This document shows, piece by piece, positions 4,338 to 46,104 of a stretch of DNA of 64,000 bases. The stretch comes from Halobacillus sp. Marseille-P3879 (GTDB lineage: Bacteria > Bacillota > Bacilli > Bacillales > Halobacillaceae), in assembly GCF_900240285.1 (NCBI RefSeq), contig NZ_OESS01000001.1:620001-684000 (forward strand). The letters run 5' to 3'. The translations under genes and the position numbers were made by a program. The stretch's first letter is position 1. Every line of letters begins with the position of its first letter. The notes beneath the pieces are model-generated. The model saw nothing but the letters and a program-made list of their open reading frames with translations, was not told the origin of the DNA and made no database searches.

Positions 4338-4444
4338 GGGTACCGGGTACACCGATGCACCATTTGTGTACCTGTTACCACACAATTTAATCGGTGTACC
4401 TGGAACCACACAATGGAACCACACAATGGAACCACACAATGATA
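4338..4444. repeat. GTACC palindrome cluster A plus a 13-bp triplication
   Basis: First of six related clusters. GGGTACCGGGTACAC (4338-4352) is followed at 29 and then 27 bp by decayed copies TGTACCTGTTACCA (4367) and GTGTACCTGGAACCACAC (4394). The tail of the last copy has then expanded into three exact 13-bp units TGGAACCACACAA (4401-4439). The cluster begins right after a T-rich tract, as in clusters C, D and F. Nothing else is recognised in the glyA-upp gap apart from the upp promoter. Confidence 0.85.
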
Positions 4445-4471
4445 CAACACATAGCAATCACACATCTGCTC

Positions 4472-4500
4472 TTGCTCTTTATCGACTTTTTCTGTACAAT
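4472..4500 (+). promoter_or_regulatory. Candidate sigma-A promoter of upp
   Basis: TTGCTC (4472-4477), 17-bp spacer, TACAAT (4495-4500), 35 bp before the upp start. Good spacing and a near-consensus -10. Confidence 0.5.
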
Positions 4501-4535
4501 TAGCGGGATGCAAACTATTAAAAGGAGTGACTGAC

Positions 4536-5168
4536 ATGGGAAAAGTATATGTTTTAGACCATCCATTAATTCAACACAAACTCACGTACATACGGAAGAC
4601 GGAGACAGGCACGAAGGATTTCCGCCAACTCGTTGATGAAGTAGCCGCTCTAATGGCTTTTGAAATCACACGCGACCTGCCCCTTGAAGAAGTTGAAATT
4701 GATACCCCTGTTGTATCGAACGCCAAAGCCCAGGTGCTCACAGGGAAAAAGATTGGTCTGATTCCTATCCTCCGCGCAGGACTAGGTATGGTAGATGGCA
4801 TTATCCAGCTTATTCCAGCCGCGAAAGTCGGTCACGTCGGACTTTATCGTGATCCAGAAACGCTCCAGCCCGTGGAATACTACGTCAAGCTTCCAAGCGA
4901 CATTGAAGAACGTGAACTGATCGTCATCGATCCAATGCTGGCCACTGGAGGATCCGCTAATGAAGCGATCGATTCCATTAAGAAACGAGGCGCACGCCAA
5001 ATCCGCCTCATGTGTCTCGTAGCGGCTCCTGAAGGGGTGGAAGCTGTGCAGGAAGCTCACCCGGACGTTGACATTTATCTTGCTGCGATGGATGACCGCC
5101 TCAATGAAAAAGGCTACATTGAGCCAGGTCTCGGTGACGCCGGCGACCGTCTGTTCGGCACGAAGTAA
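4536..5168 (+). CDS. upp: Uracil phosphoribosyltransferase
   Basis: A 210-residue enzyme beginning [20 protein letters not shown], as in Bacillus Upp. The PRPP loop [10 protein letters not shown] and the C-terminal [11 protein letters not shown] uracil-binding segment are intact. It makes UMP from uracil and PRPP (pyrimidine salvage, cytoplasm). ATG 4536 follows AAAGGAG (4521-4527); the in-frame GTG at 4527 overlaps the RBS and is rejected. The gene stops 9 bp before mnaA, so the two are likely co-transcribed. Confidence 0.97.
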
Positions 5169-5177
5169 GGACATTCT

Positions 5178-6320
5178 ATGATTAAAGTCATGACCATTTT
5201 CGGCACAAGGCCCGAAGCGATTAAAATGGCGCCGCTCGTTTTGGAATTAAAAAAAAGGTCAGAGCAGTTTGAGCCCATCGTGACGGTAACAGCTCAGCAC
5301 AGACAGATGCTTGACCAGGTATTGAACATTTTCAGCATCGAGCCCGATTATGATTTAAACATAATGAAGGATCGTCAAACGCTGTCCCAGGTCACCACAC
5401 GAGCGCTTGAGGGGCTGGACGGCGTTATGAAAGAAACAAAACCCGATCTCGTTCTTGTGCATGGCGACACAACGACGACATTTGCCGCATCACTGGCCGC
5501 TTATTACAATCAAATCCCGGTCGGACATGTGGAAGCAGGATTGCGGACGTGGGATAAATACTCGCCGTATCCGGAAGAAATGAACCGGCAGCTCACTGGA
5601 GTGATGGCTGATTTGCATTTTGCTCCCACTGATCAGTCACGGGAAAACCTGTTGTCGGAAAACAAACCAGCAGAGCACATTTTTGTGACAGGCAATACAG
5701 CGATTGATGCATTGAATACAACGGTTGATAAAAACTACACCTCTGAAGTGCTGAACTCAATCGGAAGCGACAAGCGTCTTGTTCTTATGACTGCCCACCG
5801 CCGCGAGAATCTCGGTCGAAACATGAAACAGATGTTCCGTGCCATTAAGCGTCTTGTCGAAGCGAATGATGACGTTGAAGTGGTCTATCCCGTCCATTTA
5901 AATCCGGCCGTTCGTGAAGTGGCCGATGAAATCTTAGGCAATGATGACCGCATTAAGCTGATTGACCCGCTTGATGTAATTGATTTTCACAATTTCGCGG
6001 CCCGCGCCCACTTAATTTTAACGGATTCAGGCGGTGTGCAGGAAGAAGCGCCTTCTCTTGGCGTCCCTGTACTTGTTCTCCGGGATACTACTGAACGTCC
6101 TGAAGGGATAGAGGCCGGTACCCTGAAGCTTGCCGGCACAGAGGAAGATCGTATTTTCACTCTGGCTCATGAGCTGTTATCGGATGAAGCAAAACATGAA
6201 GCTATGGCTCAAGCTTCGAACCCATACGGCGACGGACAAGCCTCCGCCCGAATAGCCGAAGCGATTCGCTATTTTTTCAAGGAGCGTAACGATAAGCCGG
6301 CCCCATTTGTAACAGAGTAG
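5178..6320 (+). CDS. mnaA: UDP-N-acetylglucosamine 2-epimerase (non-hydrolysing)
   Basis: A 380-residue WecB/MnaA-family enzyme. The N-terminal FGTRPEAIKMAP motif, the HGDTTTTFA and VGHVEAGLRT blocks, the TAHRREN motif and the LTDSGGVQEEAP nucleotide-sugar site are all present. It interconverts UDP-GlcNAc and UDP-ManNAc for teichoic acid linkage units or capsule. Its position directly after upp is conserved in Bacillus. A hairpin terminator starts at its stop codon. Confidence 0.95.
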   Translation: MIKVMTIFGTRPEAIKMAPLVLELKKRSEQFEPIVTVTAQHRQMLDQVLNIFSIEPDYDLNIMKDRQTLSQVTTRALEGLDGVMKETKPDLVLVHGDTTTTFAASLAAYYNQIPVGHVEAGLRTWDKYSPYPEEMNRQLTGVMADLHFAPTDQSRENLLSENKPAEHIFVTGNTAIDALNTTVDKNYTSEVLNSIGSDKRLVLMTAHRRENLGRNMKQMFRAIKRLVEANDDVEVVYPVHLNPAVREVADEILGNDDRIKLIDPLDVIDFHNFAARAHLILTDSGGVQEEAPSLGVPVLVLRDTTERPEGIEAGTLKLAGTEEDRIFTLAHELLSDEAKHEAMAQASNPYGDGQASARIAEAIRYFFKERNDKPAPFVTE

Positions 6321-6349
6321 CCTCTTCCAGCACGGGAGAGGTTTTTTTA
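6321..6349 (+). terminator. Terminator after mnaA
   Basis: Stem CCTCTTCC / GGGAGAGG with loop AGCAC and a T7 run directly after the mnaA stop codon. Confidence 0.85.
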
Positions 6350-6413
6350 TTGCCCCTCGCATAACGACACCTCCTTAAACACACACTACCGGTAAAAAGG
6401 AGCCTCACCGACC

Positions 6414-8567
6414 ATGCCGCTCAAAATCGCCGCCTTATTCATCGTGCTCACACTGCTCGCCGGCTTCAGTCAGCCTGATCCTGACGAAGAGATTACGATT
6501 ATTCTCGAACTGAAGGAAACCTCGGTCGAATCATTTACAAACCACGTCGAATCTCGGCTGCCCAGGCTTGAGGTAGTCGCTGAATATGAAACGATTTTTA
6601 ACGGAATCGCTGTAAAAGGTACACCTGATGAGCTTGAAAAAATCTCACGTCTCAAAGAGGTCGCCAACCAATTTCCTGTGGAAACGTACACGACACAGGA
6701 GGAATTGTTGACAGAACCGGCTGATTCTTTGACCACAGATATTGTCCGGCCCGATACCTCTTATACAGGCGCTGGAGTGAAGGTGGGCGTAGTAGATACA
6801 GGAATCGATTACAATCATCCTGATCTGAAGGCGAATTTTCGCGGAGGCTTTGATGTGATTGATTATGACGACGATCCGATGGAGACGACAGAAGAAGGCA
6901 AGACACTGCACGGAACCCACGTCGCCGGCATCATTGGAGCGGATGGCGATATGAAAGGGGTAGCTCCTGACGTGGACTTATATGCCTATCGTGCATTGGG
7001 ACCAGGAGGCATGGGGACATCGGTCCAGGTTATTGCTGCAATTGAAGAAGCAGTGGAGGATGGAATGGACGTCATTAATTTGTCACTCGGCAACGACGTA
7101 AATGGGCCTGACTGGCCGACGACGAAAGCGGTCGAACGAGCCATTGAGCTTGGCACAACAGTGATTGTGGCTGCGGGGAACGCAGGACCTGACACGTGGA
7201 CGATCGGCTCACCTGCTACATCGGAGCACGCCATTACGGTCGGTGCTTCCGCTTTGCCGGAAGAGCAGGCACTGCTGACCATTCCGGGGGAAGACAAACA
7301 GCTGCCCGTCAGGATTTTACAAGGCTCTAAACCATGGAACCTGTCGAAAAAGTACCCGTTGATCGAAATGCAAGGACAGGAGGTCGAGGGCGCGACGGGA
7401 AAAATTGTGCTCATGAAACGCGGCGGTACGAGTTTTGCAGAGAAAGCACAGCGCGCCTATCAACAAGGAGCAGAAGCATTAATTATTATGAACAACTCAA
7501 ATACACTGCTCCGGGGATCAATTCAAGGACTCGATTTACCGATTCCTGTCGCAGCCGTTACAAAGGAAGAAGGAGAGTGGCTGCTTGAAAAAGGAGTAAA
7601 GAATAATCAATGGGTGGAGACTATTACGAAGGAAGCAGAGCACGGAATTGCCCCTTTCAGCTCCAGAGGACCCGTCACTTCCTCGTGGAGCGTCAAACCT
7701 GACATTTTAGCCCCAGGAGTGAATGTAGTCAGCACCGTACCCGGCGGCTACCAGGCGCTGCAGGGCACAAGTATGGCCGCTCCACACATTGCAGGGGCAG
7801 CAGCACTGTTAAAAGAAGCTCATCCAGACTGGACGCCTGCCGAGATTAAGCAGTCGCTCATGAGTACAGCCGACCTTTTACAAAAACAAGAAGAGCCGCT
7901 TCCTCCGACAGAGCAGGGAGCCGGCTACGTTGATACCGCCCAGGCACTTACGCCTGAATTATGGATGGAGCCGGGGGCGCTTAACTTCGGAAGGATTGAA
8001 GACAATCTGTTTCGAGAAAAAATAAAGCTAAAAGTAGAGAACAAACAGAATACAACCCAGACCTATCACGTCAGACAGCCAGACAAACAGCCAGGCATCG
8101 GCTGGACGCTGCCCTCCACGTTTCAATTGAACCCAGGAGAGGCAAAGGAACTCACGGTCGAAGTCAACATGAATAAAGCATTTATGAAGGAAGGCGTTCA
8201 CCAGGGATTTATCGCAGTCGAAAATGGTGAAAACGACCATCATATCCCATTTTTGTTCATGGTGGAAACCGATAATTATGAAAAAGTCTCAGGCTTTGAG
8301 TTGTACAAAGACTGGGAAACTGAAGCGGATTTAACGTATCGATTTAACTTAACAGAACCCGCCGACCGATTAACGATCGATCTTTACAGAGCAGGTACGC
8401 TGCTGCATCAAGGACGATTGCTTGAATTAGAAGACCCGAAGGAAGGACTGAACGAAGGGGAAATCGATCTTAAAATGAGTGACGACTATACCGGGCCTTA
8501 CCTTGCTGTGGTAACGATTGAAATAGAAGGACAAACGCATAGTTACCCTTTTCCGATTCAAATGTGA
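6414..8567 (+). CDS. Vpr-like secreted subtilisin-family serine protease with PA domain
   Basis: A 717-residue S8 protease. Residues 1-20 form a short signal peptide (GFSQ/P region as cleavage area), 26-100 an I9-type propeptide, and 120-480 the catalytic domain with Asp128 (VVDTGID), His166 (HGTHVAG), oxyanion Asn256 (AAGNAGP) and Ser453 (GTSMAAPH). A protease-associated (PA) domain is inserted at about 290-400. The C-terminal 220 residues look like beta-sandwich domains. This architecture is that of B. subtilis Vpr, but the product is shorter, so the C-terminal part is reduced. Presumed function: extracellular proteolysis for nutrient supply. It is a single gene between terminators. Confidence 0.88.
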   Translation: MPLKIAALFIVLTLLAGFSQPDPDEEITIILELKETSVESFTNHVESRLPRLEVVAEYETIFNGIAVKGTPDELEKISRLKEVANQFPVETYTTQEELLTEPADSLTTDIVRPDTSYTGAGVKVGVVDTGIDYNHPDLKANFRGGFDVIDYDDDPMETTEEGKTLHGTHVAGIIGADGDMKGVAPDVDLYAYRALGPGGMGTSVQVIAAIEEAVEDGMDVINLSLGNDVNGPDWPTTKAVERAIELGTTVIVAAGNAGPDTWTIGSPATSEHAITVGASALPEEQALLTIPGEDKQLPVRILQGSKPWNLSKKYPLIEMQGQEVEGATGKIVLMKRGGTSFAEKAQRAYQQGAEALIIMNNSNTLLRGSIQGLDLPIPVAAVTKEEGEWLLEKGVKNNQWVETITKEAEHGIAPFSSRGPVTSSWSVKPDILAPGVNVVSTVPGGYQALQGTSMAAPHIAGAAALLKEAHPDWTPAEIKQSLMSTADLLQKQEEPLPPTEQGAGYVDTAQALTPELWMEPGALNFGRIEDNLFREKIKLKVENKQNTTQTYHVRQPDKQPGIGWTLPSTFQLNPGEAKELTVEVNMNKAFMKEGVHQGFIAVENGENDHHIPFLFMVETDNYEKVSGFELYKDWETEADLTYRFNLTEPADRLTIDLYRAGTLLHQGRLLELEDPKEGLNEGEIDLKMSDDYTGPYLAVVTIEIEGQTHSYPFPIQM

Positions 8568-8718
8568 AAAAGAGGAAAGCAGGACAGCCGTTTGAACATG
8601 ATGACCCATCCTTCTTTTTACACAGCATCCTTATATTAACGGAATCAGTCAAAAAGTACCATTATGTAACCCTTTCCAAGACCCGATAAATAAGCTGATC
8701 GAGTCACTCGACAGCCTT

Positions 8719-8750
8719 AGGAACAGCCGTTAGACAGCTGTTCCTTTTTT
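8719..8750 (+). terminator. Terminator between the protease gene and the atp operon
   Basis: Stem AGGAACAGC / GCTGTTCCT with loop CGTTAGACA and a T-rich tail. It lies about 150 bp after the protease stop codon. The remaining gap to 8916 holds the atp promoter. Confidence 0.85.
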
Positions 8751-8819
8751 ATTAACAAAAATTGTGACAAATTTATGATAAATGCGTGTCGGACTTTTGT
8801 ACTTTTGCTCGCAAACGCA

Positions 8820-8848
8820 TTGACATGATATGACCCCTATTGTATTCT
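8820..8848 (+). promoter_or_regulatory. Candidate sigma-A promoter of the atp operon
   Basis: TTGACA (8820-8825), 17-bp spacer, TATTCT (8843-8848), about 70 bp before the first atp gene. Consensus -35 with correct spacing. Confidence 0.6.
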
Positions 8849-8916
8849 TACATAGTGTGGAATGATAAGGTTTTCATGCATTACAGCGCTTTTTTTATGT
8901 AAAAAGAGGTGTTGAA

Positions 8917-9135
8917 TTGAAACACTCACAATTTCCATTTCGAGCAATGGCCCTTACGAGTGCGATTGTGTCTCAACTGGCTGGTGGACCGCTTGTTGGA
9001 GTGTTTTTAGGGAAGTGGGTGGATAACCAATTTTCCACAAGTCCACTCTTTCTAATTCTTGGTCTACTCATTGGATTGGGAGCGGGTACATACGGAACGA
9101 TTCATTTAGTACGAGCGTACACGGGAGACGATTAA
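8917..9135 (+). CDS. AtpZ/AtpI-like small membrane protein
   Basis: A 72-residue protein with two transmembrane segments (about 16-34 and 42-62), the layout of AtpZ-type proteins encoded ahead of atpI in many Bacilli. In Bacillus pseudofirmus AtpZ and AtpI have been linked to Ca/Mg supply for the ATP synthase; a role here is by analogy. TTG at 8917 is the start because AAGAGGTG (about 8903-8910) precedes it at normal spacing. It is the first gene of the atp operon. Confidence 0.75.
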   Translation: MKHSQFPFRAMALTSAIVSQLAGGPLVGVFLGKWVDNQFSTSPLFLILGLLIGLGAGTYGTIHLVRAYTGDD

Positions 9136-9136
9136 C

Positions 9137-9505
9137 TTGGAAGATTATCAACTTATGATAGCCCGTCAGCGAAAATGGATGTTCTACCTTCTGGCAATTC
9201 TAGTTTTAGGTTGGGGTTTAACCCCCTGGCAGCCGGTTTTCCTCGGGCTTCTTTTAGGAAGCATCCTTAGTTTTTACAATCTCTGGCTCATGCAGCGGAA
9301 GATCAAAAAGTTAGGCGAATCTTCAGCAAACAGCATGAACACAAGAGGGATTGGAACATTTACGCGACTTGCATCAGGCGCTTTAGCCGTTGTAATCGCC
9401 CTTCAGTTTGAAGCACATTTCCACTTAATTTCTGTAGTATTGGGCTTAATGGCAGCCTACTTTGTCATTATTATAGATTACCTGTTTAACAGAGCAACAG
9501 ATTAG
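9137..9505 (+). CDS. atpI: ATP synthase subunit I
   Basis: A 122-residue protein with four hydrophobic segments and a conserved SFYNLWLM-type segment after the second, typical of AtpI (PF03899), which assists c-ring assembly. It starts with TTG one base after the previous stop codon, implying translational coupling; ATG at 9155 is an alternative. Not part of the mature enzyme. Confidence 0.8.
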   Translation: MEDYQLMIARQRKWMFYLLAILVLGWGLTPWQPVFLGLLLGSILSFYNLWLMQRKIKKLGESSANSMNTRGIGTFTRLASGALAVVIALQFEAHFHLISVVLGLMAAYFVIIIDYLFNRATD

Positions 9506-10252
<747 letters not shown>

Positions 10253-10265
10253 CATAAAATCATAA

Positions 10266-10514
<249 letters not shown>

Positions 10515-10527
10515 AGAAAAAGATGAT

Positions 10528-10563
10528 GGCGAAGTTCATATTTCGTGAATCTTCGCCTTTCCT
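10528..10563 (+). terminator. Hairpin after atpE, possible partial terminator
   Basis: Stem GGCGAAG-TTCA / TGAA-T-CTTCGCC with one bulged base, followed by TTTCCTTTAT. Inside an operon it could attenuate or stabilise the atpE 3' end. Confidence 0.5.
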
Positions 10564-10685
10564 TTATGTCTTCTTACAGGTACTACCCGAGTTTATAATA
10601 GGAAAAACCTTGGTATGTTGGTTTTTCTGTAATCTGGCATTTTTTACGGGTGTCGATAAAGGCGCCAATTGTTATGGGGGAGGTA

Positions 10686-12169
<1,484 letters not shown>

Positions 12170-12178
12170 TAGGGGTGA

Positions 12179-13693
<1,515 letters not shown>

Positions 13694-13737
13694 GTAACGA
13701 CTTGAACGATGTGTAAACTAGCTGGAAAGGGTGGTGA

Positions 13738-14607
<870 letters not shown>

Positions 14608-16612: not shown

Positions 16613-16906
16613 AGAGTGCTCTTATAAAGCCAGAGCGCCTAACCGCACCAGGTCCTCTTGAAAGCCAGAAACACTCATAATCACCTGCGGCACCTGGTAC
16701 CCGTGCGCACTCTCTATATAAGCCGGCACTATACAATCGACATTGCCACTCACCAATCCACCTTCTTTCGACTGCAGTGTCAATATTCCCCGGGAAATAA
16801 ATTATATTGCGCGGGAAATTATATTTCTGGCATTTCCTGACGGTTAATGTTTGTTCACAAAAAATTCACTTTTAAAGCGCAATCATTACCAGTTGCATAG
16901 TTGACA
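16613..16906. other. Non-coding stretch between atpC and ywzB
   Basis: No gene is supported. Two nested complementary blocks, GAGTGC / GCACTC and ACCAGGT / ACCTGGT, span about 16616-16713. The second includes CACCTGGTACCCGTG, which resembles a degenerate member of the GTACC family. Further on, CCCCGGGAAATAA and GCGGGAAATTATAT form a loose repeat. TTGACA at 16901-16906, followed 17 bp later by GATTCT, is a weak promoter candidate for ywzB. Confidence 0.4.
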
Positions 16907-20526: not shown

Positions 20527-20718
20527 GGGTACCAGGTACACAAAATAAATTGTGTGGTACCCGGTACACAGCATCGACTTTCGTGTACCGGGTACCACAC
20601 AGTTAAAATCACGTACCTGGTACACGCTTATAACCACCGAAAGCCAGTCAAGCCGCCTTTTAAGGTGGCTTTTTTGTGTACCCGGTACACCGAATGAGCC
20701 TCTCTGTACCTGGTACCC
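20527..20718. repeat. GTACC palindrome cluster B, six copies
   Basis: Copies at 20527, 20552, 20583, 20613, 20676 and 20705. The second and third form an exact 18-bp inverted repeat: GTGTGGTACCCGGTACAC is the reverse complement of GTGTACCGGGTACCACAC. First (centre A) and fourth (centre T) are complementary around them, so the group can nest. The spoIID-spoIIQ gap contains nothing else besides a terminator. Confidence 0.9.
20650..20675 (+). terminator. Terminator between repeat copies, downstream of spoIID
   Basis: Stem AAGCCGCCTT / AAGGTGGCTT with one G-T pair and a T6 tail, lying between the fourth and fifth GTACC copies. Confidence 0.75.
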
Positions 20719-21804: not shown

Positions 21805-21840
21805 AAATGGAGGCTGAACCGGCCTCCATTTTTTTCTTTT
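21805..21840 (+). terminator. Terminator after spoIIQ
   Basis: Stem AAATGGAGGC / GCCTCCATTT, loop TGAACCG, long T-rich tail leading straight into repeat cluster C. Confidence 0.92.
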
Positions 21841-21846
21841 TTTTCT

Positions 21847-21945
21847 GGGTACCAGGTACAGAGAATTAGTTGTTTGGTACCAGGTACACAAAATGTCGTC
21901 TTCTGTACCGGGTACACGTGCTCTTTATTTCTGTACCTGGTACCG
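21847..21945. repeat. GTACC palindrome cluster C, four copies
   Basis: Copies at 21847, 21876, 21904 and 21932 (spacing 29, 28, 28 bp) with unrelated spacers of about 14 bp. First (GGTACCAGGTACA) and fourth (TGTACCTGGTACC) are exact reverse complements. Confidence 0.9.
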
Positions 21946-29530: not shown

Positions 29531-29532
29531 AT

Positions 29533-30604: not shown

Positions 30605-30702
30605 GTGTACCGGGTACACTGTAGAAATTGTTTGGTACCAGGTACACTGAGTGTCTATCGGTGTACCCGGTACACGACAACTGCTTCATGGTACCTGGTA
30701 CC
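30605..30702. repeat. GTACC palindrome cluster D, four copies, upstream of the transposase
   Basis: Copies at 30605 (centre G), 30634 (A), 30661 (C) and 30690 (T), spaced 29, 27 and 29 bp. First and third, GTGTACC-G-GGTACAC and GTGTACC-C-GGTACAC, are exact reverse complements; second and fourth are complementary over 13 bp. Confidence 0.9.
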
Positions 30703-30745: not shown

Positions 30746-31300
30746 ATGGCCAGAGTCAGACGCATTTGGTATCCAGGAGCTATGTATCATATCACATCAA
30801 GAGGAAATCGAAAGGAAAATATCTTTCTCCATGACTACGACCGCATAAGGTATCTTAACATCCTCAAATTCGTGCACAAAAAATACCCATTTAAGCTTCA
30901 CGCTTACTGCCTCATGAGCAATCACATTCACCTGCTGCTTGAAACCACACAATTTCCCCCGGGTAAGATTCTTCATCTGCTTCATCTTAATTACGCCAAA
31001 TTCTTTAACAAAAAGTACAACCACAACGGCCATCTTTTTCAAGGCAGGTATCATGCCAAACTTATTATGGACCGTTATTACTTCATGGACGCCTTCAGCT
31101 ACATCCACCTCAATCCATTCCGCGCCAGCCTCTCAGATAAAGAAGAAACCAACCCACTATGGTCCTCTCACTACTATTACACCCACAACGAAACAGACAA
31201 TATCCTCACAAAAGACTTGTTCCACACTTATCTTGAATCCACCCCCTACGATCAATGGTTCAGCAGCAAAAAACTTAAAATAGAAGAAAATGAACGGTAA
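30746..31300 (+). CDS. REP-associated tyrosine transposase (Y1/HUH family)
   Basis: 184 residues of the TnpA_REP (RAYT) type, related to the IS200/IS605 transposases. Motif HIH within SNHIHLLLE (His60, His62) is the metal-binding HUH pair, and Tyr119 in SYIHLNPFRASL is the candidate nucleophile. The opening ARVRRIWYPGAMYHITSRGN is characteristic. No terminal IS ends are seen; instead the gene is bracketed by GTACC palindrome clusters D and E, the classic RAYT arrangement. RBS TGGAGGTG. Intact and probably active in mobilising or maintaining the repeats (inference). Confidence 0.9.
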   Translation: MARVRRIWYPGAMYHITSRGNRKENIFLHDYDRIRYLNILKFVHKKYPFKLHAYCLMSNHIHLLLETTQFPPGKILHLLHLNYAKFFNKKYNHNGHLFQGRYHAKLIMDRYYFMDAFSYIHLNPFRASLSDKEETNPLWSSHYYYTHNETDNILTKDLFHTYLESTPYDQWFSSKKLKIEENER

Positions 31301-31324: not shown

Positions 31325-31366
31325 TGTACCGGGTACACAAAATGCACATCTCTGTACCTGGTACCA
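31325..31366. repeat. GTACC palindrome cluster E, two copies, downstream of the transposase
   Basis: TGTACCGGGTACAC (31325) and TGTACCTGGTACCA (31353), 28 bp apart, 25 bp after the transposase stop codon. Confidence 0.88.
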
Positions 31367-35932: not shown

Positions 35933-35937
35933 TTTTA

Positions 35938-35966: not shown

Positions 35967-35983
35967 TTTTCCGGCAATATTCG

Positions 35984-36003: not shown

Positions 36004-36195
36004 TCAAATAAATTTCTAACCTCCAGTAACCTGTCGAAATTCCTCCCGCCCCGTCGACAAATCAAAAATTTTCTAAAGCAAATTTACAATCCTTTGAAAA
36101 CCTTTACATAAACCTTACAAAACTATAAAAAAATCAACAAATTCATATGATAGGTTTTGAGTGTAGAAAGAGTAAAAGAGAGGGAAGGGGATCAG

Positions 36196-37386: not shown

Positions 37387-37396
37387 GAGGCGTCCC

Positions 37397-37846: not shown

Positions 37847-37858
37847 GGTGACTACTAT

Positions 37859-39019
37859 ATGGCAAAAAAACTGAACATGAAAGAAAAGATGTTAAAGCAC
37901 AGCAAATGGCACAAAAAACGCGCCCCTTTTCATACGTTTACAGCCTTGCTGGTTGTCCTTGCGCTCGTTTATCCACTCAATCATTTATTAAGGCCATCAG
38001 CCATCGCGGTAGAGGAGGGGAATGACCGATTCACCGCATCGGTCGTCGGTGACATCATGTTTGGACGATTTGTCGAAAACGTTGCTGAGAAAGACTCTTA
38101 CGATGCGCATTTTGACAACGTCCGTGACTTGTTTAACCAATCTGATTACGTCGCCGGCAACTTCGAGAATCCGGTCGTCCTTAACGACGATGCCATTCCG
38201 ATTGAAAAAGCGTACAACTTTAAGACGAAGCCGGAAGCCGTCGAAGCCCTGGATAACGCCAATTTCACCGTCGCCAATCTTGCCAATAACAACGTGCTCG
38301 ACTACGGCATAGCCGGATTAACCGATACGATGAACACTTTTAACGATGCAGAAACCGACTTCATCGGCGCTGGGCAGAATTTATCTGAAGCGGGAGCGAT
38401 TCACTATAAAGAATACAATGGCGTCACGGTCGCAAGTCTCGGCTTTAACGATATCCTTGATTACAGTACCCAGGCGACCGAAACGGCAGCTGGTGTGCTC
38501 GGTGCTGATCCGGAGACGTTTATGCCGCTCATTGAAGAAGCGAAAGCCAACGCCGATCTCGTTTTCGTCCACGTGCACTGGGGCAAAGAATACGAGCACG
38601 ATATCCAGCCTAAGCAGCGCGACTATGCGCACGCCATGGCTGAAGCAGGAGCCGATGCGATTTTCGGTACTCACGCCCACGTGCTGGCCCCTATTGAGAA
38701 ATACAAAGACACTGTCATATTTTACAGTCTTGGGAACTTCATTTTTGATCAAGGCTGGTCGCGCACGAAGGAATCCGCCATTGTCCAGTATCATCTGGAG
38801 CAGGACGGCTCCGCCCGGTTTGAAGTACTGCCAGCCTACATTGAAGATACTAAGCCGTCACCATTGAAGGAAAACAACCATTACCGCAACACACCCATTT
38901 TAAGAAAGATGACAAAGGAACTTGACGACGCAGACTGGAACAAGCAAGGCAACCGTGCCGTCATCCCTGTCGATCACTCACACATCACAGCCGAGGAGGA
39001 GAGCAGCCGTGCAGAATAA
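37859..39019 (+). CDS. pgsA: Poly-gamma-glutamate export/assembly protein PgsA (CapA)
   Basis: 386 residues: a basic cytosolic N terminus, one membrane anchor (about 28-46) and an extracytoplasmic CapA domain of the metallophosphoesterase-like superfamily, with GDIMFGR, AGNFENP, HVHWGKEYEH and FGTHAHVLAPIE. Needed for polymer assembly and transport. Its 3' end overlaps the next gene by 11 bp in another frame. Confidence 0.93.
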   Translation: MAKKLNMKEKMLKHSKWHKKRAPFHTFTALLVVLALVYPLNHLLRPSAIAVEEGNDRFTASVVGDIMFGRFVENVAEKDSYDAHFDNVRDLFNQSDYVAGNFENPVVLNDDAIPIEKAYNFKTKPEAVEALDNANFTVANLANNNVLDYGIAGLTDTMNTFNDAETDFIGAGQNLSEAGAIHYKEYNGVTVASLGFNDILDYSTQATETAAGVLGADPETFMPLIEEAKANADLVFVHVHWGKEYEHDIQPKQRDYAHAMAEAGADAIFGTHAHVLAPIEKYKDTVIFYSLGNFIFDQGWSRTKESAIVQYHLEQDGSARFEVLPAYIEDTKPSPLKENNHYRNTPILRKMTKELDDADWNKQGNRAVIPVDHSHITAEEESSRAE

Positions 39020-40670
39020 GATCATCATCACTGTCCTGTCCGCCATCGTCATCGGCGGCATGTGGTTTTACTACCAGGTCGAAGGCGTATCGCCCGAGCT
39101 TGCGATATTTAATCAAGGAGATAAACAAACCGACCGCGATCCCGTTGAAACCGTAGATGGCTACGGCGTCAGCGCCTCCAATCCGCTTGCCGTCGAAGCC
39201 GGTATGGAAATTTTAGAAAAAGGAGGATCTGCCGCAGACGCCGCTGTCACCGTATCCTACGTCTTAAGCGTGGTTGAGCCATACGGTTCCGGCATTGGAG
39301 GGGGAGGCGAAACGCTTTATTACCCTGCCGACGGCGAACCGACAACCTACGTCTATAACGAAAATGCACCATTAAACGGACAGATGCCCGACGATAACGT
39401 AGGACTGCCCGGATTTGTTAAAGGCATGGAACGCCTGAATAAAGACCTCGGCAACCTGAAGATGAGCGAACTGATCCAGCCCGCGATCGACATTGCCGAA
39501 GAGGGCTTTAAAGTCGACAACAGCCTGCATGGACGTCTCGAAGCCGCCCAATATCGCATGCCGATATCCGAGCTGCCGCACCTGTATCCCGGCGGCACCC
39601 CCGTCAATCCAGGCGTTGAAATCAAGCAGGAACAGCTCGCCGGAACACTCAAAGCGATACGCGACGGAGGAGCCGACAGCTTTTACAACGACCAGCTCGG
39701 CCAGAACTTCCTCGCCCAGACATCCGGCCATACCGAACAAGACTTAACCCAGTACGAAGTCAAGACAGCCGCACCAGCAAAAGGCAGCTTCGCCGGCTAC
39801 GACGTGCTCACCGCACCCCCGCCCTTTGGCGGCACCACCTTAATTCAGACCTTAAACATGGTTGAAGACATCGGGTTGGAAAAAGCTGCAGCGAATGACG
39901 AACAATATATCCACCTCTTAGGGGAAGTGATTAAACGAAGCTACAGCGATCGGTTAGGCACAATCAGCGATCCTGAATTTAATCCGATTAATGTAGACGA
40001 ATTAACAAGCGACGCCTATGCGGAAAAACTGGCCTCTGACATTTCAATGGAGAATCTATCAGAGGAGTACGAGATTAACGACAGCCCCGCAGACGAGGCC
40101 GATCACAACAACACGACTCATTTCGTAATCGTCGATAAAGAAGGCAACATGGCATCGACTACAAATACGCTCAGCAACTTTTTTGGCTCCGGCAAATTCG
40201 TCGACGGCTACTTTTTAAACAACCAGCTGTCTAATTTCAGCGAAACCCCAGGATCCGTTAACGCTCCAGAACCCGGCAAAAGTCCGCGAAGCTACACGGC
40301 ACCGACCATCTTAGCGAAGGACGGCCAGCCGTTTATGGGAATTGGAACACCGGGCGGGAAGCGGATCCCGATGATGATTGCTGACGTGCTCACCCGTCAT
40401 CTGCTGCTCGATCAGCCGCTTGAAGACGTCGTCGAAGCACCTCGCTTTTACGTGGAAGAAGAGGAGGTGATCATGGAAGAAGCCTTTGCCGACAACTTAG
40501 ATGAAGACACGAAAGCCAAGCTTCAGGTCCAAGGATACAGACTCGACACCTACAACTCGGACCAATTTTACGGCGCCATCCACAGCCTCGTCATCAACCG
40601 CGACAAGGAAATGATGTACGGCGCCTCCGACAGCCGCCGTGCCGGCGACTGGCAAATCAAAGAAAACTAG
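39009..40670 (+). CDS. Gamma-glutamyltranspeptidase-type PGA depolymerase/anchorase (PgsD/CapD), copy 1
   Basis: 553-residue Ntn hydrolase with an N-terminal membrane anchor (about 4-22). Autoprocessing should occur before Thr369 in NNTTHFVIVDKEG; the GSGIGGGG loop and PGGKRIPMM segment belong to the family. CapD anchors or trims the polymer; whether this one anchors or hydrolyses cannot be told. GTG 39009 is chosen because GAGGAGGAGAG (38992 onward) precedes it and the product then begins with the membrane anchor. Confidence 0.88.
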   Translation: MQNKIIITVLSAIVIGGMWFYYQVEGVSPELAIFNQGDKQTDRDPVETVDGYGVSASNPLAVEAGMEILEKGGSAADAAVTVSYVLSVVEPYGSGIGGGGETLYYPADGEPTTYVYNENAPLNGQMPDDNVGLPGFVKGMERLNKDLGNLKMSELIQPAIDIAEEGFKVDNSLHGRLEAAQYRMPISELPHLYPGGTPVNPGVEIKQEQLAGTLKAIRDGGADSFYNDQLGQNFLAQTSGHTEQDLTQYEVKTAAPAKGSFAGYDVLTAPPPFGGTTLIQTLNMVEDIGLEKAAANDEQYIHLLGEVIKRSYSDRLGTISDPEFNPINVDELTSDAYAEKLASDISMENLSEEYEINDSPADEADHNNTTHFVIVDKEGNMASTTNTLSNFFGSGKFVDGYFLNNQLSNFSETPGSVNAPEPGKSPRSYTAPTILAKDGQPFMGIGTPGGKRIPMMIADVLTRHLLLDQPLEDVVEAPRFYVEEEEVIMEEAFADNLDEDTKAKLQVQGYRLDTYNSDQFYGAIHSLVINRDKEMMYGASDSRRAGDWQIKEN

Positions 40671-40682
40671 GAGAGACCTGAT

Positions 40683-40859
40683 ATGATAAAAAAACTATTA
40701 AAAGAATCACGCTCTTTTCTGTTACTTGCACTCGTCATCATTGCCATGGCCACATTTAAACAAGTCGACACCATTACCGAAGAAGACAAAACCTTTATCG
40801 AAAACTACAATACCGAACAAACCAATAATCAGGAAGACGAATCCATCGTCCGCAACTGA
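40683..40859 (+). CDS. pgsE: PgsE/CapE-like small membrane protein
   Basis: 58 residues, ATG 40683 after AGGAGAG. Basic start (MIKKLLKESR), one membrane helix (about 11-24), acidic hydrophilic tail. Size, topology and position as last gene of the pgs operon match PgsE (YwtC), which stimulates polymer production in B. subtilis. Confidence 0.75.
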   Translation: MIKKLLKESRSFLLLALVIIAMATFKQVDTITEEDKTFIENYNTEQTNNQEDESIVRN

Positions 40860-40887
40860 GCTCCCGTCAGAGGGAGCTCGTTTTTTT
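40858..40887 (+). terminator. Terminator of pgs operon 1
   Basis: Stem GAGCTCCC / GGGAGCTC, loop GTCAGA, T7. It overlaps the pgsE stop codon by two bases. Confidence 0.9.
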
Positions 40888-40888
40888 C

Positions 40889-40972
40889 GTTAAGGCGCAA
40901 ACCTGTCGCGTTAGGCCGTAATCCTCTCGAGTTAAGTCGTAATCCCCTTACGTTAGGGGCTAATCCCGTTAA
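40889..40972. repeat. Four degenerate 21-bp tandem repeats
   Basis: Units start at 40889, 40910, 40931 and 40952, each beginning GTTA(A/G)G and containing (C/G)TAATCC or CAAACC near the middle, for example GTTAAGTCGTAATCCCCTTAC. Period exactly 21 bp, i.e. two helical turns. Directly behind the pgs operon terminator. Confidence 0.75.
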
Positions 40973-40995
40973 ATTAAGGAACATTTTTGTAGTTA

Positions 40996-41136
40996 ATGAA
41001 TCTTAAAGATTTAAAAATCAGAGCAGAACTGATTGCTAAAACAGACAGATTTCGAGAAGATGGGTACGAAGGTTTTAATATGGCTGAAGCAATGCCGAGA
41101 TTAACATCCAATAAGGACACCGACAAATTTAAGTAA
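40996..41136 (+). CDS. Small unrecognised ORF upstream of the SDR gene
   Basis: A 46-residue reading frame, MNLKDLKIRAELIAKTDRF at the start, with a protein-like composition (basic, charged, helical). Weak RBS (TAAGGA, 15 bases away). It may be a leader peptide, a small gene, or the tail of a lost larger gene of the SDR operon. The stop codon overlaps the RBS of the next gene. Confidence 0.35.
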   Translation: MNLKDLKIRAELIAKTDRFREDGYEGFNMAEAMPRLTSNKDTDKFK

Positions 41137-41147
41137 GGAGTTTTCTT

Positions 41148-41903
41148 ATGAATCAACTATTTGACTTATCGAATAAGGTTGCTGTCGTAACCGGGGGCAA
41201 CCGCGGTCTTGGAAAAGACATCGCATTAGGCCTGGCTAGTGCTGGGGCTGACGTGGTTGTGATAGCGAGAAATGTGAAAGAAGAAGTAGTAGATGAATTG
41301 CGTAACGAGGGTGTAAAAGCGTTAGGAATAAACTTCGATTTAAAGCACAGTGAGAAGTATGATGAGTTAATTGAGCGCGTGACGAATGAATTCGGCAGGG
41401 TGGATATTTTAGTAAACAACGCCGGGGTGCAGAAGCGTCACCCTTCAGTTGAATTTCCTAAAGAAGATTGGGATTTTGTTATGGACATTAATGCAAACGC
41501 TGTCTTTTTGCTGTGCCAGAAATTTGGCAGAAAAATGATTGAACAAGGCAGCGGCAAAATTATTAATATGGCGTCGATGCTCTCTTTTCATGGCGGATAC
41601 ACCGTTCCTGCCTATGCGGCGAGCAAGGGGGCTGTGATGCAGTTTACCAAGTCACTGGCTAATGAGTGGGCCGAAAAAGGGGTCAACGTCAATTGCATTG
41701 CGCCAGGTTATATGGCCACTGAAATGAATACAGCGTTGATCAATGATGAAAAAAGAAATCAGGAAATCCTCGGGCGGATTCCTGCAAAAAGATGGGGAGA
41801 ACCAACAGACTTACGTGGAGCAGCCATCTTTTTAGCTTCCCGTGCCTCTGACTATATTCACGGTTTTACACTCGCGGTGGATGGAGGATACTTAGGTCGA
41901 TAA
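41148..41903 (+). CDS. SDR-family oxidoreductase (KduD/gluconate dehydrogenase-like)
   Basis: 251-residue classical short-chain dehydrogenase: TGGNRGLGKDIA cofactor loop near residue 15, NNAGVQ, catalytic Tyr-x-x-x-Lys in YAASKGAVMQF, and the C-terminal DGGYLGR. Closest named families are 2-deoxy-D-gluconate 3-dehydrogenase (KduD) and gluconate 5-dehydrogenase; substrate not determinable. It sits alone between the two pgs operons with no kdu/uxu genes nearby. RBS TAAGGAG. Confidence 0.82.
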   Translation: MNQLFDLSNKVAVVTGGNRGLGKDIALGLASAGADVVVIARNVKEEVVDELRNEGVKALGINFDLKHSEKYDELIERVTNEFGRVDILVNNAGVQKRHPSVEFPKEDWDFVMDINANAVFLLCQKFGRKMIEQGSGKIINMASMLSFHGGYTVPAYAASKGAVMQFTKSLANEWAEKGVNVNCIAPGYMATEMNTALINDEKRNQEILGRIPAKRWGEPTDLRGAAIFLASRASDYIHGFTLAVDGGYLGR

Positions 41904-41917
41904 AAACCCAAAACGAT

Positions 41918-41957
41918 AAACCTCAATCTTAAAACAAGTAAGATTGAGGTTTTTTTA
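41918..41957 (+). terminator. Terminator after the SDR gene
   Basis: 13-14 bp stem AAACCTCAATCTTA / TAAGATTGAGGTTT, loop AAACAAG, T7. Confidence 0.93.
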
Positions 41958-42477
41958 TGGGAAACACCTGAGTCGTGATACCCCCATCAATCTCAAGCCA
42001 TGAGACAAACCACCTAAATGGATGAATTTTCTTCTGTAAGTCTTCATTTTCCCCTACAATTTAACAGTAAAAATAAAACATAAAACCAATATATTTACAA
42101 TAAAGTTGGGTCCTTCCTAAATTATTTCAATCACGCGACAGGAAAAATAGCGCCCAGGTCATAGTCTTAGATTCGCAGCTTCTACTCCACGGTTTTGTTT
42201 CATCCTCCATCCATGCGGTTTTTGTCGAATTTTGTTTAGAATCCAAGATGATAATATTGGAAAAATTACCACCATATATGGAATAAATACATCAATCGGA
42301 CTACATAAGTATAGATTTAGTATGTCATCTAGTTGTTATCATTTTTAATCCTTGTGTAACTGCAAAGTAATTGATCTCTAGTATATTGGATTGCGGACTA
42401 ACCCGTGCATCCCACTCAACCAATCCAGCCTGCGGGGGGCGTCCGAATACATGAGATCGATGCTATGGAGGTAAAAC
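41958..42477. other. 520-bp AT-rich non-coding region before pgs operon 2
   Basis: No reading frame of protein-like composition on either strand and no repeat of the families seen elsewhere. It must hold the promoter of the second pgs operon, but no hexamer pair with correct spacing stands out. GGAGG at about 42466 is the pgsB RBS. Confidence 0.5.
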
Positions 42478-43671
42478 ATGGTAGTAGAACTTAGCATTAT
42501 TCTGTTATTGGGCTTAATTGCTTTTTTCCTTGGCGCGAAGGAGAAAGTGAAGAATAACAAAAACATAGAGAGCATTCCCGTGCGGGTGAACGTCAATGGG
42601 ATTCGTGGAAAGTCGACGGTAACGCGTCTCATTACAGGGGTACTGCAGAAAGCCGGCTACAAGACAGTCGGCAAAACGACGGGCACCGACGCGCGGATGC
42701 TGTACTGGTTTGATGCGCAGGAGGAACCGATTCAGCGGAGACTGGAGGGTCCGAATATAGGAGAGCAGCGTAAAGTATTGGACAAGACGGTAGAGCTTGA
42801 TGCGGATGCGCTCGTCAGTGAGTGTATGGCGGTGAAGCCGGATTATCAGGTGATTTTTCAGGACCAGCTGCTGCAGGCAAACATTGGCTTGATCGTCAAT
42901 GTCCTGGAGGATCATATGGACGTACTTGGTCCGACGCTGGAGGAGGTCGCGGATTCATTTGGAGAAGCGATTCCTTATGATGGGGATTTGATCGTAAACG
43001 ATAGTCCGTATGTGCCGCAGTTTAAGGAGCTGGCAGCGGAGCGCAATACGACGCTGCACGTCTGTGATACATCGCTTATTTCGGAAGAGTTTTTGAAAAA
43101 ATTTGAGTACATGGTATTTCCGGAGAATGCCGCGCTGGCTTTAGCGGTAGCGGATGTGCTCGGAATTGATCATGAAACGGCGAAGCAGGGGATGCTTGAA
43201 GCGTGGCCGGATCCGGGTGCGATGCAAATTCTTCCGCTGGGAGATGCACGAAATCCAAGCTATCTCGTGAACGGGTTTTCAGCCAATGACCCGACATCGA
43301 CCTTAAACATTTGGGAGCGGGTGAAGCAGCTCAGCTATCCGACCGAGGATCCTGTTGTCATTATGAACTGCCGGGAGGACCGGGTCGACCGGACTGAACA
43401 GTTTGCAAAACAGGTGCTTCCGTATCTGCCATGTGAAACGCTCATCCTCATGGGCCAGACAACAGGACCGATTATTGACGCTTACAAAAAAGGCGCACTC
43501 CCTGTACGTAACCTGCTTGACTTAGAAGGCTATGAAACTGATGAAATTGTGCGCGTGCTGCAGCCATATCTCTCGGGTAAAACGATTTATGGCATCGGCA
43601 ACATTCACGGAGGCGCAGAAGAACTCACTGAACGGCTTGAACAGAAGAAGATTATAAAAGGAACGGCATAG
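42478..43671 (+). CDS. Poly-gamma-glutamate synthase PgsB (CapB), copy 2
   Basis: 397 residues, closely related to the first copy throughout (ATP loop NGIRGKST, KTTGTDARMLYWFD, RRLEGPNIGEQ, VNVLEDHMDVLGPT, NIHGGAEEL). All ligase motifs are intact, so it should be catalytically competent. The main differences lie in the N-terminal anchor and the acidic C terminus. Heads a separate operon with its own long leader. Confidence 0.93.
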   Translation: MVVELSIILLLGLIAFFLGAKEKVKNNKNIESIPVRVNVNGIRGKSTVTRLITGVLQKAGYKTVGKTTGTDARMLYWFDAQEEPIQRRLEGPNIGEQRKVLDKTVELDADALVSECMAVKPDYQVIFQDQLLQANIGLIVNVLEDHMDVLGPTLEEVADSFGEAIPYDGDLIVNDSPYVPQFKELAAERNTTLHVCDTSLISEEFLKKFEYMVFPENAALALAVADVLGIDHETAKQGMLEAWPDPGAMQILPLGDARNPSYLVNGFSANDPTSTLNIWERVKQLSYPTEDPVVIMNCREDRVDRTEQFAKQVLPYLPCETLILMGQTTGPIIDAYKKGALPVRNLLDLEGYETDEIVRVLQPYLSGKTIYGIGNIHGGAEELTERLEQKKIIKGTA

Positions 43672-43684
43672 AAAGGAATTCATT

Positions 43685-44161
43685 ATGTTTATTTTTGATA
43701 CAGGAGATGTTTATTTAGCGTTAGTCGCTGGAATTGTTCTTAGTTTATTTTATACAGAAAAAACTGGTGTACTGCCGGCCGGCCTTGTCGTGCCAGGATA
43801 TATAGCTATGCTGTTCACCTTCCCGGTCAGTGTGGCGGTCGTATTTATGATTAGTTTTATAACCTATTTAATCGTCATGAAGGTGATTGCCAAATTCACC
43901 ATTTTATATGGCAGGCGCAAGTTCACCGCCATGCTGACAGTGGGAATTGTGCTCAAAATTGTTTTTGATATGGCAGTGCCGGGATACTCCACGCCGGATG
44001 TCGTCGACGGCATGATGGCGATCGGAGTTATAATCCCTGGACTGATCGCGAATACTATACAAAAACAAGGGGTGCTCCCGACGACAGCCAGTACGCTGCT
44101 CCTCAGCGGCGTTACGTTTGGAATCGTTACTTTATCAAGCTTTATTGGAGGAGGCATTTAA
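43685..44161 (+). CDS. Poly-gamma-glutamate synthase membrane subunit PgsC, copy 2
   Basis: 158 residues, same block order as copy 1 (YTEKTGVLPAGLVVPGYIAM, FTILYGRRKFTAMLT, VIIPGLIANTIQKQG) with a slightly longer N terminus and C terminus. Its TAA stop is immediately followed by the ATG of the next small gene. Confidence 0.92.
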   Translation: MFIFDTGDVYLALVAGIVLSLFYTEKTGVLPAGLVVPGYIAMLFTFPVSVAVVFMISFITYLIVMKVIAKFTILYGRRKFTAMLTVGIVLKIVFDMAVPGYSTPDVVDGMMAIGVIIPGLIANTIQKQGVLPTTASTLLLSGVTFGIVTLSSFIGGGI

Positions 44162-44326
44162 ATGGAAGCGGCATTACAATATAAAAAGAAGACACGCAAA
44201 GAACAGAAATTAACTTTTAGCCAATGGGTGTTAAAAACGATTAAACGCCACAAGAAACGCACCACCACCGATGTCACGATCGGGCTGATTGTCTCTGTCG
44301 TCCTTTTCTTCATTAATCTGGTATAA
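44162..44326 (+). CDS. 54-residue membrane protein in the pgsA position of operon 2
   Basis: ATG follows the pgsC stop codon with no gap. The product has a basic N-terminal part (YKKKTRKEQK, IKRHKKRTTT) and one C-terminal membrane helix (about 38-54). This mirrors the basic segment and anchor at the start of PgsA in operon 1 (KWHKKR followed by a membrane helix), but the whole CapA domain is absent. It may be a PgsA remnant reduced to its membrane anchor, or an unrelated small PgsE-like accessory subunit. Confidence 0.65.
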   Translation: MEAALQYKKKTRKEQKLTFSQWVLKTIKRHKKRTTTDVTIGLIVSVVLFFINLV

Positions 44327-44330
44327 GGAC

Positions 44331-45983
44331 ATGGGCAGAAACAAAACGTTTAACATTCTCATCATCAGTCTGTTCATCCTCATTCTTTTACTGTTGTCGA
44401 TGAAACAGGGAACCATTGAAGAAGAGGAGCCAGCAGAGGATTATACGTTAAACGATACCGCACCGGAGAAGGAAGAGACAGGCTCGTACGGCGTGACATC
44501 AGATAGTGAAATCGCAACCGAAGTCGGAATGAAAGTGATTGAACAGGGCGGGAACGCCGTTGATGCGGCGATTGCCGTAAGCTACGTCTTAGGCGTGGCG
44601 GAACCTTATGGCTCGGGAATCGGCGGAGGCGGAACAATGCTGATTCATCCGGAAAAAGGAAGCGGGGAATCACCCGTCGTCTACGATTACCGCGAAACCG
44701 CCCCGGACTCTGAATCCGCCCCCGAAAGCGGGATCGGCGTTCCTGGTTTTGTGAAAGGCATGGATAAAGTACACGAGGACTATGGCTCTGTTGACATGAA
44801 GCAGCTCATAGAACCATCGATTAATTTTGCCAGCAACGGCATCACCGTCTCAGAAACGCTGCACAACCGGTTAAAAGGCGCCGAATACCGCATGCCTGAC
44901 CTGGACCATATGTATCCGGACGGCGAAGCGATCGAGGCGGGAGAGGTACTTGAGCAGCATCAGCTGGCCGATACACTGCGGGCTATCCAGGAAGACGGCC
45001 CCGACGCTTTCTACAGCGGTGATCTGGCTTCAGAAATGAACAATGAGGAAAAGAAACTCGACGAAGATGATTTAGAATCTTATGAAGTCAATATTTCCGA
45101 ACCGATCCAGGGCGAATTCGGCGACTATGACGTCGTAGCTCCACCCCCGCCATCAGGAGGCATCATGCTGCTGCAAAGCTTAGAAATGGCCGAGGAGCTG
45201 AACATCGAGGAGACGAAGGAGAAACCCGTCGACTATGCGATGATGATGGGGATGATCAACCGCGTCAGCTATAAGGACCGCCTTGAGAACGTAGGCGACC
45301 CTGAGTACACCGATGTCCCGGTGAAAAAGATGCTGGCTGAAGATCATATTAAAGCACTCGCATCCGATATCAACGGATCCGATCTCTCTGAGGAGTACCG
45401 CTCAAAACTCGATTCGGACGCCGATCTAGAAGATCATGAGAACACCACTCACTTCGTTGTCGTCGATAAAGACGGCATGATGGTTTCCGTGACGAATACA
45501 CTCAGTAACTTCTTTGGCTCTGGTGAATATGTTGAAGGCTTCTTCTTAAACAATCAGCTGAAAAACTTCAGCAACAGCGAAAATTCACCAAACCGGCCGG
45601 AGCCTGGTAAACGACCGTTCAGCTATACAACGCCGACCGTTTTAGCCAAAAACGGCAATCCCGTCATCGGAATCGGAGCTTCAGGAGGACGGCGTATCAC
45701 GCCAATTGTCGCCCAGCAGCTCGTCCGCATGATCAAGTTCAATGAACCCGTGCAGAGCTCGGTTGAAGAACCACGCACATTCCTGGAATTGGACGAGGAT
45801 ACATTGCAAGTCGAGAACGATTACGTCTTCCTCGATGATCCGGAAAATCTCGGAATCAACGTTAAATATTCCGACCGCACCACCTACTTCGGCAGCGTCC
45901 AGGGGCTCGTGATCGACTACGAAAACAACAAAATACACGGAGCCAGCGACCCCCGAAGACAAGGAAGCTGGGAATCCGAATGA
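44331..45983 (+). CDS. Gamma-glutamyltranspeptidase-type PGA depolymerase/anchorase (CapD-like), copy 2
   Basis: 550 residues with N-terminal membrane anchor (about 6-23). Predicted processing threonine Thr372 in ENTTHFVVVDKDG; GSGIGGGG and ASGGRRITPI match copy 1. ATG 44331 is chosen (AAGG just upstream, anchor follows at once); the frame extends upstream only through the preceding small gene. Last gene of pgs operon 2; there is no pgsE after it. Confidence 0.87.
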   Translation: MGRNKTFNILIISLFILILLLLSMKQGTIEEEEPAEDYTLNDTAPEKEETGSYGVTSDSEIATEVGMKVIEQGGNAVDAAIAVSYVLGVAEPYGSGIGGGGTMLIHPEKGSGESPVVYDYRETAPDSESAPESGIGVPGFVKGMDKVHEDYGSVDMKQLIEPSINFASNGITVSETLHNRLKGAEYRMPDLDHMYPDGEAIEAGEVLEQHQLADTLRAIQEDGPDAFYSGDLASEMNNEEKKLDEDDLESYEVNISEPIQGEFGDYDVVAPPPPSGGIMLLQSLEMAEELNIEETKEKPVDYAMMMGMINRVSYKDRLENVGDPEYTDVPVKKMLAEDHIKALASDINGSDLSEEYRSKLDSDADLEDHENTTHFVVVDKDGMMVSVTNTLSNFFGSGEYVEGFFLNNQLKNFSNSENSPNRPEPGKRPFSYTTPTVLAKNGNPVIGIGASGGRRITPIVAQQLVRMIKFNEPVQSSVEEPRTFLELDEDTLQVENDYVFLDDPENLGINVKYSDRTTYFGSVQGLVIDYENNKIHGASDPRRQGSWESE

Positions 45984-46020
45984 GATAGATTAAGAAAATA
46001 AGTTAAGCAAAAGAAAAAAA

Positions 46021-46051
46021 GAGTGGAGCAGTATACTCCACCCTTTTTTTC
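46021..46051 (+). terminator. Terminator of pgs operon 2
   Basis: Stem GTGGAG / CTCCAC with flanking partial pairing, loop CAGTATA, long T-rich tail that leads into repeat cluster F. Confidence 0.8.
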
Positions 46052-46061
46052 TTTTTTTTCT

Positions 46062-46104
46062 GGGTACCGGGTACACAGAAGGTCACTCCCTGTACCCGGT
46101 ACAC
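46062..46104. repeat. GTACC palindrome cluster F, two copies
   Basis: GGGTACCGGGTACAC (46062) and TGTACCCGGTACAC (46091), 29 bp apart with complementary central bases (G and C). It ends one base before the stop codon of the convergent PAS-STAS gene. Confidence 0.9.

Follow-up and report, generated by a model that had tools for sequence, protein, structure and literature searches.

What maintains a family of short palindromes that lie at an almost constant distance from one another between the genes of a Halobacillus genome? The question is raised by a stretch of 64,000 nucleotides from Halobacillus sp. Marseille-P3879 (contig NZ_OESS01000001.1, positions 620,001 to 684,000; hereafter the window, in which position 1 is the first letter of the stretch), where 21 copies of a palindrome with GTACC arms form six clusters. 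Two of these clusters, at 30605-30702 and 31325-31366, bracket an open reading frame (ORF) for a RAYT of 184 aa with the Y1_Tnp domain (30746..31300, plus strand), a gene that was passed over in the preliminary description of the arrays. In our judgement, the palindromes are quite probably the cognate repeats of this RAYT, i.e., a REP-like, non-autonomous population that is maintained by a Y1 HUH transposase present in one copy. The suggestion that they form an undescribed repeat family is plausible, but the family has kin of the REP/RAYT and TIRYT type because its arrays bracket a RAYT gene and follow the RAYT lineage. The best reading of the system is REP/RAYT-like or TIRYT-like, belonging to the Bacillota, nearest to the TIRYTs and with a strict, lineage-specific phase.

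The places and the number of the copies were as first described: 19 are exact matches to the 11-mer GTACCNGGTAC and two carry one mismatch. When up to two mismatches were allowed, the window had 39 matches compared with 10.6 +/- 3.4 after shuffling, and none of the 100 shuffles reached 39. Measured on the 11-mer, the step between neighbours was exactly 28 bp in 14 of the 15 intervals, and thus the reported phasing holds but the reported spread of 25-31 bp does not; the only off-phase interval is 65 bp long and has a terminator inside. The arrays, to which no strand was assigned, are composed of three palindromes at 4338..4411 (steps 28 and 28; one exact copy and two with one mismatch), six at 20527..20718 (steps 28, 28, 28, 65 and 28, the 65-bp step holding the terminator-like hairpin), four at 21847..21945, four at 30605..30702 immediately upstream of the RAYT gene, two at 31325..31366 immediately downstream of it and two at 46062..46104, the last four arrays having steps of 28 bp. 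The array at 20527 begins about 4 bp past a stop codon. All six clusters are intergenic, as was claimed for every copy, but a 20th exact copy at 47398-47408, which had been overlooked, lies within a mechanical 150-aa ORF. The T-tracts that were ascribed to terminators in front of the clusters are present, but they are partly the family's own repeated block, TTTTTTTCTTTTTTCTCTG, which recurs at array ends; the T-rich block TTTTTTTCTTTTTTTTCTGG at a left array end (21829..21848, plus strand) is found with the identical 20 bases at 46044-46063. The outward flanks of the arrays are asymmetric. CAGAGAAAAAAGAAAAAAAG, the opposite strand of which is T-rich, is frequent at array ends and also occurs within 38-bp steps, and in places this block is found with no visible terminator hairpin.

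The bracketed gene has the features that are expected of a RAYT. Its product matched PF01797 (Y1_Tnp) at E 7.8e-13 and was the only protein with a match to this family in the window's genome (G000; 4.17 Mb in nine contigs). Against the NCBIfam model REP_Tyr_transpos, it reached 67.5 bits, which is below the curated cut-off of 80, and the sole match among solved structures at E <= 1 was chain 4er8_A, TnpA_REP (E 0.07). In the alignment, the catalytic residues of the HUH motif (H60-I-H62), Y119 and N123 were retained and FQ stood where WQ was expected, while the E. coli residues E100, H101 and R104 were apparently not retained; the identity to E. coli TnpA_REP was 16%. Judged by its sequence, the protein would belong to the RAYT/TnpA_REP type, as it combines a Y1_Tnp domain that has the HUH motif and the tyrosine with a low copy number and flanking repeats of its own.

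The same palindrome is dispersed throughout the genome. G000 has 92 exact copies of GTACCNGGTAC compared with four of the reversed pattern, and the phased pattern GTACCNGGTAC-N17-GTACC had 47 forward and 45 reverse matches compared with none for the control. Reading 91 of the 92 exact copies gave a census of 39 clusters and 103 copies at up to two mismatches. A genome-wide peak of the spacing had been set beforehand as a test of the preliminary description, and the peak was found: among the 64 neighbour steps of up to 70 bp, 48 were 28 bp, five were 38, three were 53 and one each was 33, 41, 54 and 65. The remaining four (7 or 21 bp) were overlap artefacts, and there were no steps of 27 or 29 bp. 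The 28-bp step was present in 28 of the 39 clusters, two of which lie within mechanical minus-strand ORFs of 119 and 124 aa that are probably spurious. The other 26 phased arrays occupy 16 co-directional, eight convergent and two divergent gaps between ORFs, which is a weak preference because all of the gaps longer than 60 bp at the same loci (n=60) were divided into 43, nine and eight, respectively. Moreover, 27 of the 91 exact copies were inside the 100-kb stretch that contains the RAYT gene.

A comparison with related species showed that the phase persists while most of the other features of the arrays change. Arrays flank the RAYT gene on both sides in all four species that have the GTACC palindrome (G000, G001, G003 and G009). 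Those at about 20529 and 21849 have same-place counterparts in G009 and G001, and the RAYT-side arrays also have counterparts in G003. At up to one mismatch, the copy numbers in G000, G009 and G001 were 6, 3 and 5 at about 20529 and 4, 3 and 5 at about 21849; in G000, G009, G001 and G003, they were 4, 3, 3 and 3 upstream of the RAYT gene and 2, 3, 4 and 4 downstream of it. Within aligned regions of 66-92% identity, the orthologous arrays keep 28-bp steps, but their copy number and nearly all of their spacers differ; two spacers of the same orthologous array (window 21877 and L090:5706) are alike in 13 of 17 positions. The exceptions in the relatives were one step of 27 and one of 66 bp in G001, one of 64 in G009 and one of 22 in G003, as well as a separate 53-bp element in the compared stretches. 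Because the 28-bp step outlives the drift of the spacers, we infer that there is a constraint on distance.

The distribution of the palindrome also follows the lineage of the enzyme. The comparison set included 121 genomes, of which 83 had a RAYT relative at E <= 0.001, and the phased GTACC pattern was found in 11 of the 121. It had 47, 54, 31 and 38 forward matches in G000, G001, G003 and G009, which are exactly the members of the genus whose RAYTs are 67-100% identical; the seven other members of the genus, with best RAYT matches of 46-52% identity, had none. In G026, G028, G033, G036, G038 and G110, there were 0-7 forward matches. In G026, G028 and G029, the RAYTs are about 50% identical and have GTGCCNGGCAC on either side, mostly at 28-bp steps or multiples of these with one step of 27, and GTGCC at 28 bp was found in nine of the 121 genomes (8, 5 and 9 forward matches in these three, at most four in six others) and in none of the window's genus. 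ACCTCAGGTCATCCA hairpins flank the genes of a third RAYT clade, and hairpins of the ACCTCAGG pattern numbered 14-53 in ten genomes (G043 included) and zero in 111. Among the 134 distinct RAYT loci, 49 had a word of 13 nt or longer that was common to both 450-nt flanks, some of these words being non-palindromic; in a control limited to the first 70 loci, this was true for 23 of 70 compared with 40 of 1400 cross-genome pairs at the same length. When loci were labelled by palindromes that occurred two or more times within 600 bp, four were GTACC, seven GTGCC, four GAGCC, two GGGCC, 17 GGGAC/GGGTC, eight ACCTCAGG and three other. The steps were 28 bp for GTACC and for the majority of the GTGCC loci in Halobacillus; GAGCC had 25 (in some cases 26, 50 or 75), GGGCC had 23 and the remaining labels were mixed. 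In a FastTree phylogeny of 130 of the 134 proteins (four of at least 230 aa were omitted), the GTACC RAYTs formed one clade (97), and the GTGCC RAYTs of Halobacillus were its sister group (99). Taken together, the labels required 28 changes on the tree compared with 43.4 when shuffled, with none of 200 shuffles as low.

The central bases of the palindromes, which in the window read ACGT, CT, AAGT, GACT, GT and GC, had been described as often complementary between the copies of a cluster. Such complementary centres are present in the window arrays, but covariation within clusters, which had been proposed as the second test, found no support beyond array polarity and was dropped. In G000, the first centre was A or G in 22 of 29 chains and the last was C or T in 23 of 29. 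Adjacent centres were complementary in 14 of 44 pairs compared with 12.4 expected (p 0.34), and with the polarity kept, the first and last centres were complementary in 11 of 29 chains compared with 8.95 in G000 (p 0.25) and in six of eight compared with 3.5 in G009 (p 0.06). Compared with free shuffles, nested pairs were in excess in three of the four genomes (nominal p 0.06 in G000, 0.009 in G009, 0.008 in G001 and 0.27 in G003), which is largely due to the polarity. Folded as DNA, eight chosen arrays (five from the window and three from other loci) had z values of -3.1 to -10.5 relative to shuffles. The spacers were mostly unrelated, as had been stated, but not wholly, since two pairs were 88 and 94% alike and a side pattern, considered below, recurs in G000. 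Complementary spacer arms were not found (2.39 in G000, below the 2.98 of shuffled spacers). Sharing of spacers between species was likewise rejected; the best matches were 82% (two cases, both via the recurrent flank ATAAATTGTGTG), followed by 76% (three cases, including the pair at window 21877 and L090:5706), the rest of those shown being 71%. A CRISPR-like reading was dropped on anatomy, i.e., dispersed groups of two to six 11-bp repeats, without a search for cas genes.

Three other explanations were weighed. It is improbable that the arrays are phased sites for a host DNA-binding protein, either a regulator or a nucleoid protein, with the RAYT gene merely lying among them: palindromes and phase are kept in four species while most spacers drift, as would be the case with protein sites, but three palindrome families track three RAYT lineages. 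That only two of the 26 gap arrays lie between divergent ORFs also argues against such sites, although weakly because there were few divergent gaps (8 of 60) at the same loci. We give no better chance to a role that is played mainly as RNA, in which hairpins would end or protect transcripts and be selected via the genes in front of them. Of the 26 arrays, 20 start within 100 bp past the end of a plus-strand ORF to their left, including one with a 21-bp overlap, T-tracts are adjacent and the hairpins are strong, although they were folded as DNA only; however, the linkage to the RAYT, the exact 28-bp step and the palindrome swaps between clades would be left unexplained, and Rfam gave no match anywhere in the window. 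Old tandem duplication of a 28-bp unit, with slippage alone setting the step and no transposase, is very improbable, since despite the variable copy number of orthologous arrays at a constant 28-bp step, the near-identical spacers in the 25-bp arrays of Rossellomorea vietnamensis and a weak common spacer polarity in G000, spacers were no closer within arrays than between them (0.43 vs 0.44), and neither the dispersal to many sites nor the match with the RAYT lineage is explained.

The view that the palindromes are the RAYT's cognate repeats has to account for several observations that weigh against it. A second dense stretch, C9:1085-1150 kb, has 28 of the 91 exact copies, and no RAYT or clear remnant was found in the searched pieces (L081-L083) of C9:1085000-1150000; near the other repeat-rich regions that were searched, no remnant was convincing either (best E 0.45). 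G043, an assembly of about 1000 contigs with 6% contamination, had 23 GTACC and 20 ACCTCAGG forward matches with no RAYT found. Eight genomes with RAYTs that adjoin the ACCTCAGG clade had no copy of that pattern, 89 of the 134 RAYT loci remained without a label and the clustering of GGGWC on the tree was weak (14 changes vs 16.2, with 27 of 500 shuffles as low). No empty site for an array was seen. GTAG was present within 6 nt of one of the 91 exact copies (1.3% for random window positions) and GT[AG]G near 11 of the 91, counting the palindrome's own G (7.2% for random window positions); the palindromes thus lack the GTAG/GTGG that marks the foot of a REP. The polarity is also not uniform, being reversed in two of the three chains of G003. 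Additionally, among the 25 spacers of G000 that have AC or AG at each end, the sides were mixed in 18 (AC...CT) and alike in seven, which suggests head-to-tail neighbours. A REPIN is a hairpin-forming pair of inverted REPs whose distance is fixed; set against this, the arrays have a fixed step and strong hairpins, but their polarity and spacer sides are mixed.

The family was also compared with known systems. The available parts of the TIRYT study (PMC3733652, Di Nocera 2013) describe genes that are flanked by terminal inverted repeats, some of which are self-complementary and many of which occur in dimers or clusters. Like a TIRYT/TIRtron, the system studied here has a RAYT-like gene between inverted repeats that are not related to GTAG REPs and belong to dispersed families, and the GGGAC/GGGTC palindromes at 17 of the 134 Bacillota-type RAYT loci resemble the GGGGWSAS motif (PMC3733652). 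It differs in its fixed 28-bp phase, none being reported for TIRYTs in the text consulted (PMC3733652). In the portions available of a classification of these enzymes, GT[AG]G REPs were located near the genes of subclasses 2.2, 2.4, 2.5, 2.7 and 2.8, whereas automatic or manual searches revealed no REP-like sequences for subclasses 2.1 and 2.3; subclass 2.1 probably corresponds to the TIRYTs, and the 20 TIRYTs in it all have a helix-turn-helix domain (PMC6006769). Unlike these, the 184-aa RAYT has no such domain by Pfam, which detected Y1_Tnp alone, even though it shares with them the flanking non-GTAG inverted repeats. Two longer relatives (L135 and L136) had weak C-terminal helix-turn-helix matches, all under the cut-offs, and in this they resemble TnpA_Y1 subclass 2.1/Bertels group 1. 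The FQ at the position of WQ and the apparent loss of E100, H101 and R104 are further points of resemblance to this group. A linked palindrome family is a further difference from subclass 2.1, for which no REP-like sequences are given in the parts of PMC6006769 consulted, in a comparison by description. Similar to the REP/REPIN systems of E. coli and Pseudomonas, a low-copy RAYT lies among its own palindromes, dispersed copies are intergenic, outer copies are often inverted and distances are fixed. The view that regular phasing is foreign to REPs is thus only half right: the phase is real, but fixed distances of 71 and 110 bp are already described for the REPINs of P. fluorescens SBW25 in the available part of PMC3116915. 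The differences from REPs and REPINs are the missing GTAG tag, the perfect 11-bp palindrome, the 28-bp step and the arrays of two to six copies. In the literature searched, which was covered in part and with exact-letter matches judged by title among the matches listed, the palindrome family was not named; together with the absence of an Rfam match in the window, this makes an undescribed family plausible.

If the palindromes are cognate repeats, the RAYT may bind array hairpins when the strand is exposed during replication, and it would nick and rejoin the DNA. Because the first and last orientations are mostly opposite in the arrays of G000, single-stranded array DNA can form strong hairpins. 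Such action would spread or restore copies, for the most part on the downstream side of genes and close to the T-rich tails of terminators. With less assurance, the geometry of the RAYT-DNA complex might fix the 28-bp step, which would explain why 28 bp persists while the spacers drift; we regard it as possible, though rather doubtful, that the enzyme sets the phase. Also speculative is the wider idea that short Bacillota RAYTs with no helix-turn-helix domain keep a new type of tag-less, odd-palindrome REP and that the enzyme measures a lineage-specific period (28 bp in the two clades of Halobacillus type, 25 in Rossellomorea and 23 beside GGGCC), writing or restoring copies in register while the intervening DNA is free. 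For the large subclass 2.1, the part of PMC6006769 consulted gives no REP-like sequences, and it calls for further analyses. The Bacillota RAYTs studied here may be near this subclass, and they have clear partner repeats, families that change with the enzyme and a stable phase. As palindrome families and enzymes change together at a stable phase, substrate recognition can be tested by exchanging enzymes and palindromes across the two sister clades, GTACC and GTGCC.

Some further observations concern related elements. A longer relative has two inverted GTACC palindromes that are 53 bp apart (L078:1600-1920, L077:2250-2380 and L092:13600-14020); its loop is partly conserved where copies cluster, and a decayed example lies near window 16645-16700. 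Several arrays of G000, for example those with right flanks at C7:638258, C8:286475 and C9:1090473, end in CCAAAA, after which another palindrome, AAAATTSAATTTT or a close variant of it, lies about 25 bp away from the centre of the array palindrome. In Rossellomorea vietnamensis (L161 and L191), long tandem arrays of GAGCCNGGCTC, with 15 and 17 exact copies, lie downstream of the RAYT, mostly at 25-bp steps and with near-identical spacers.

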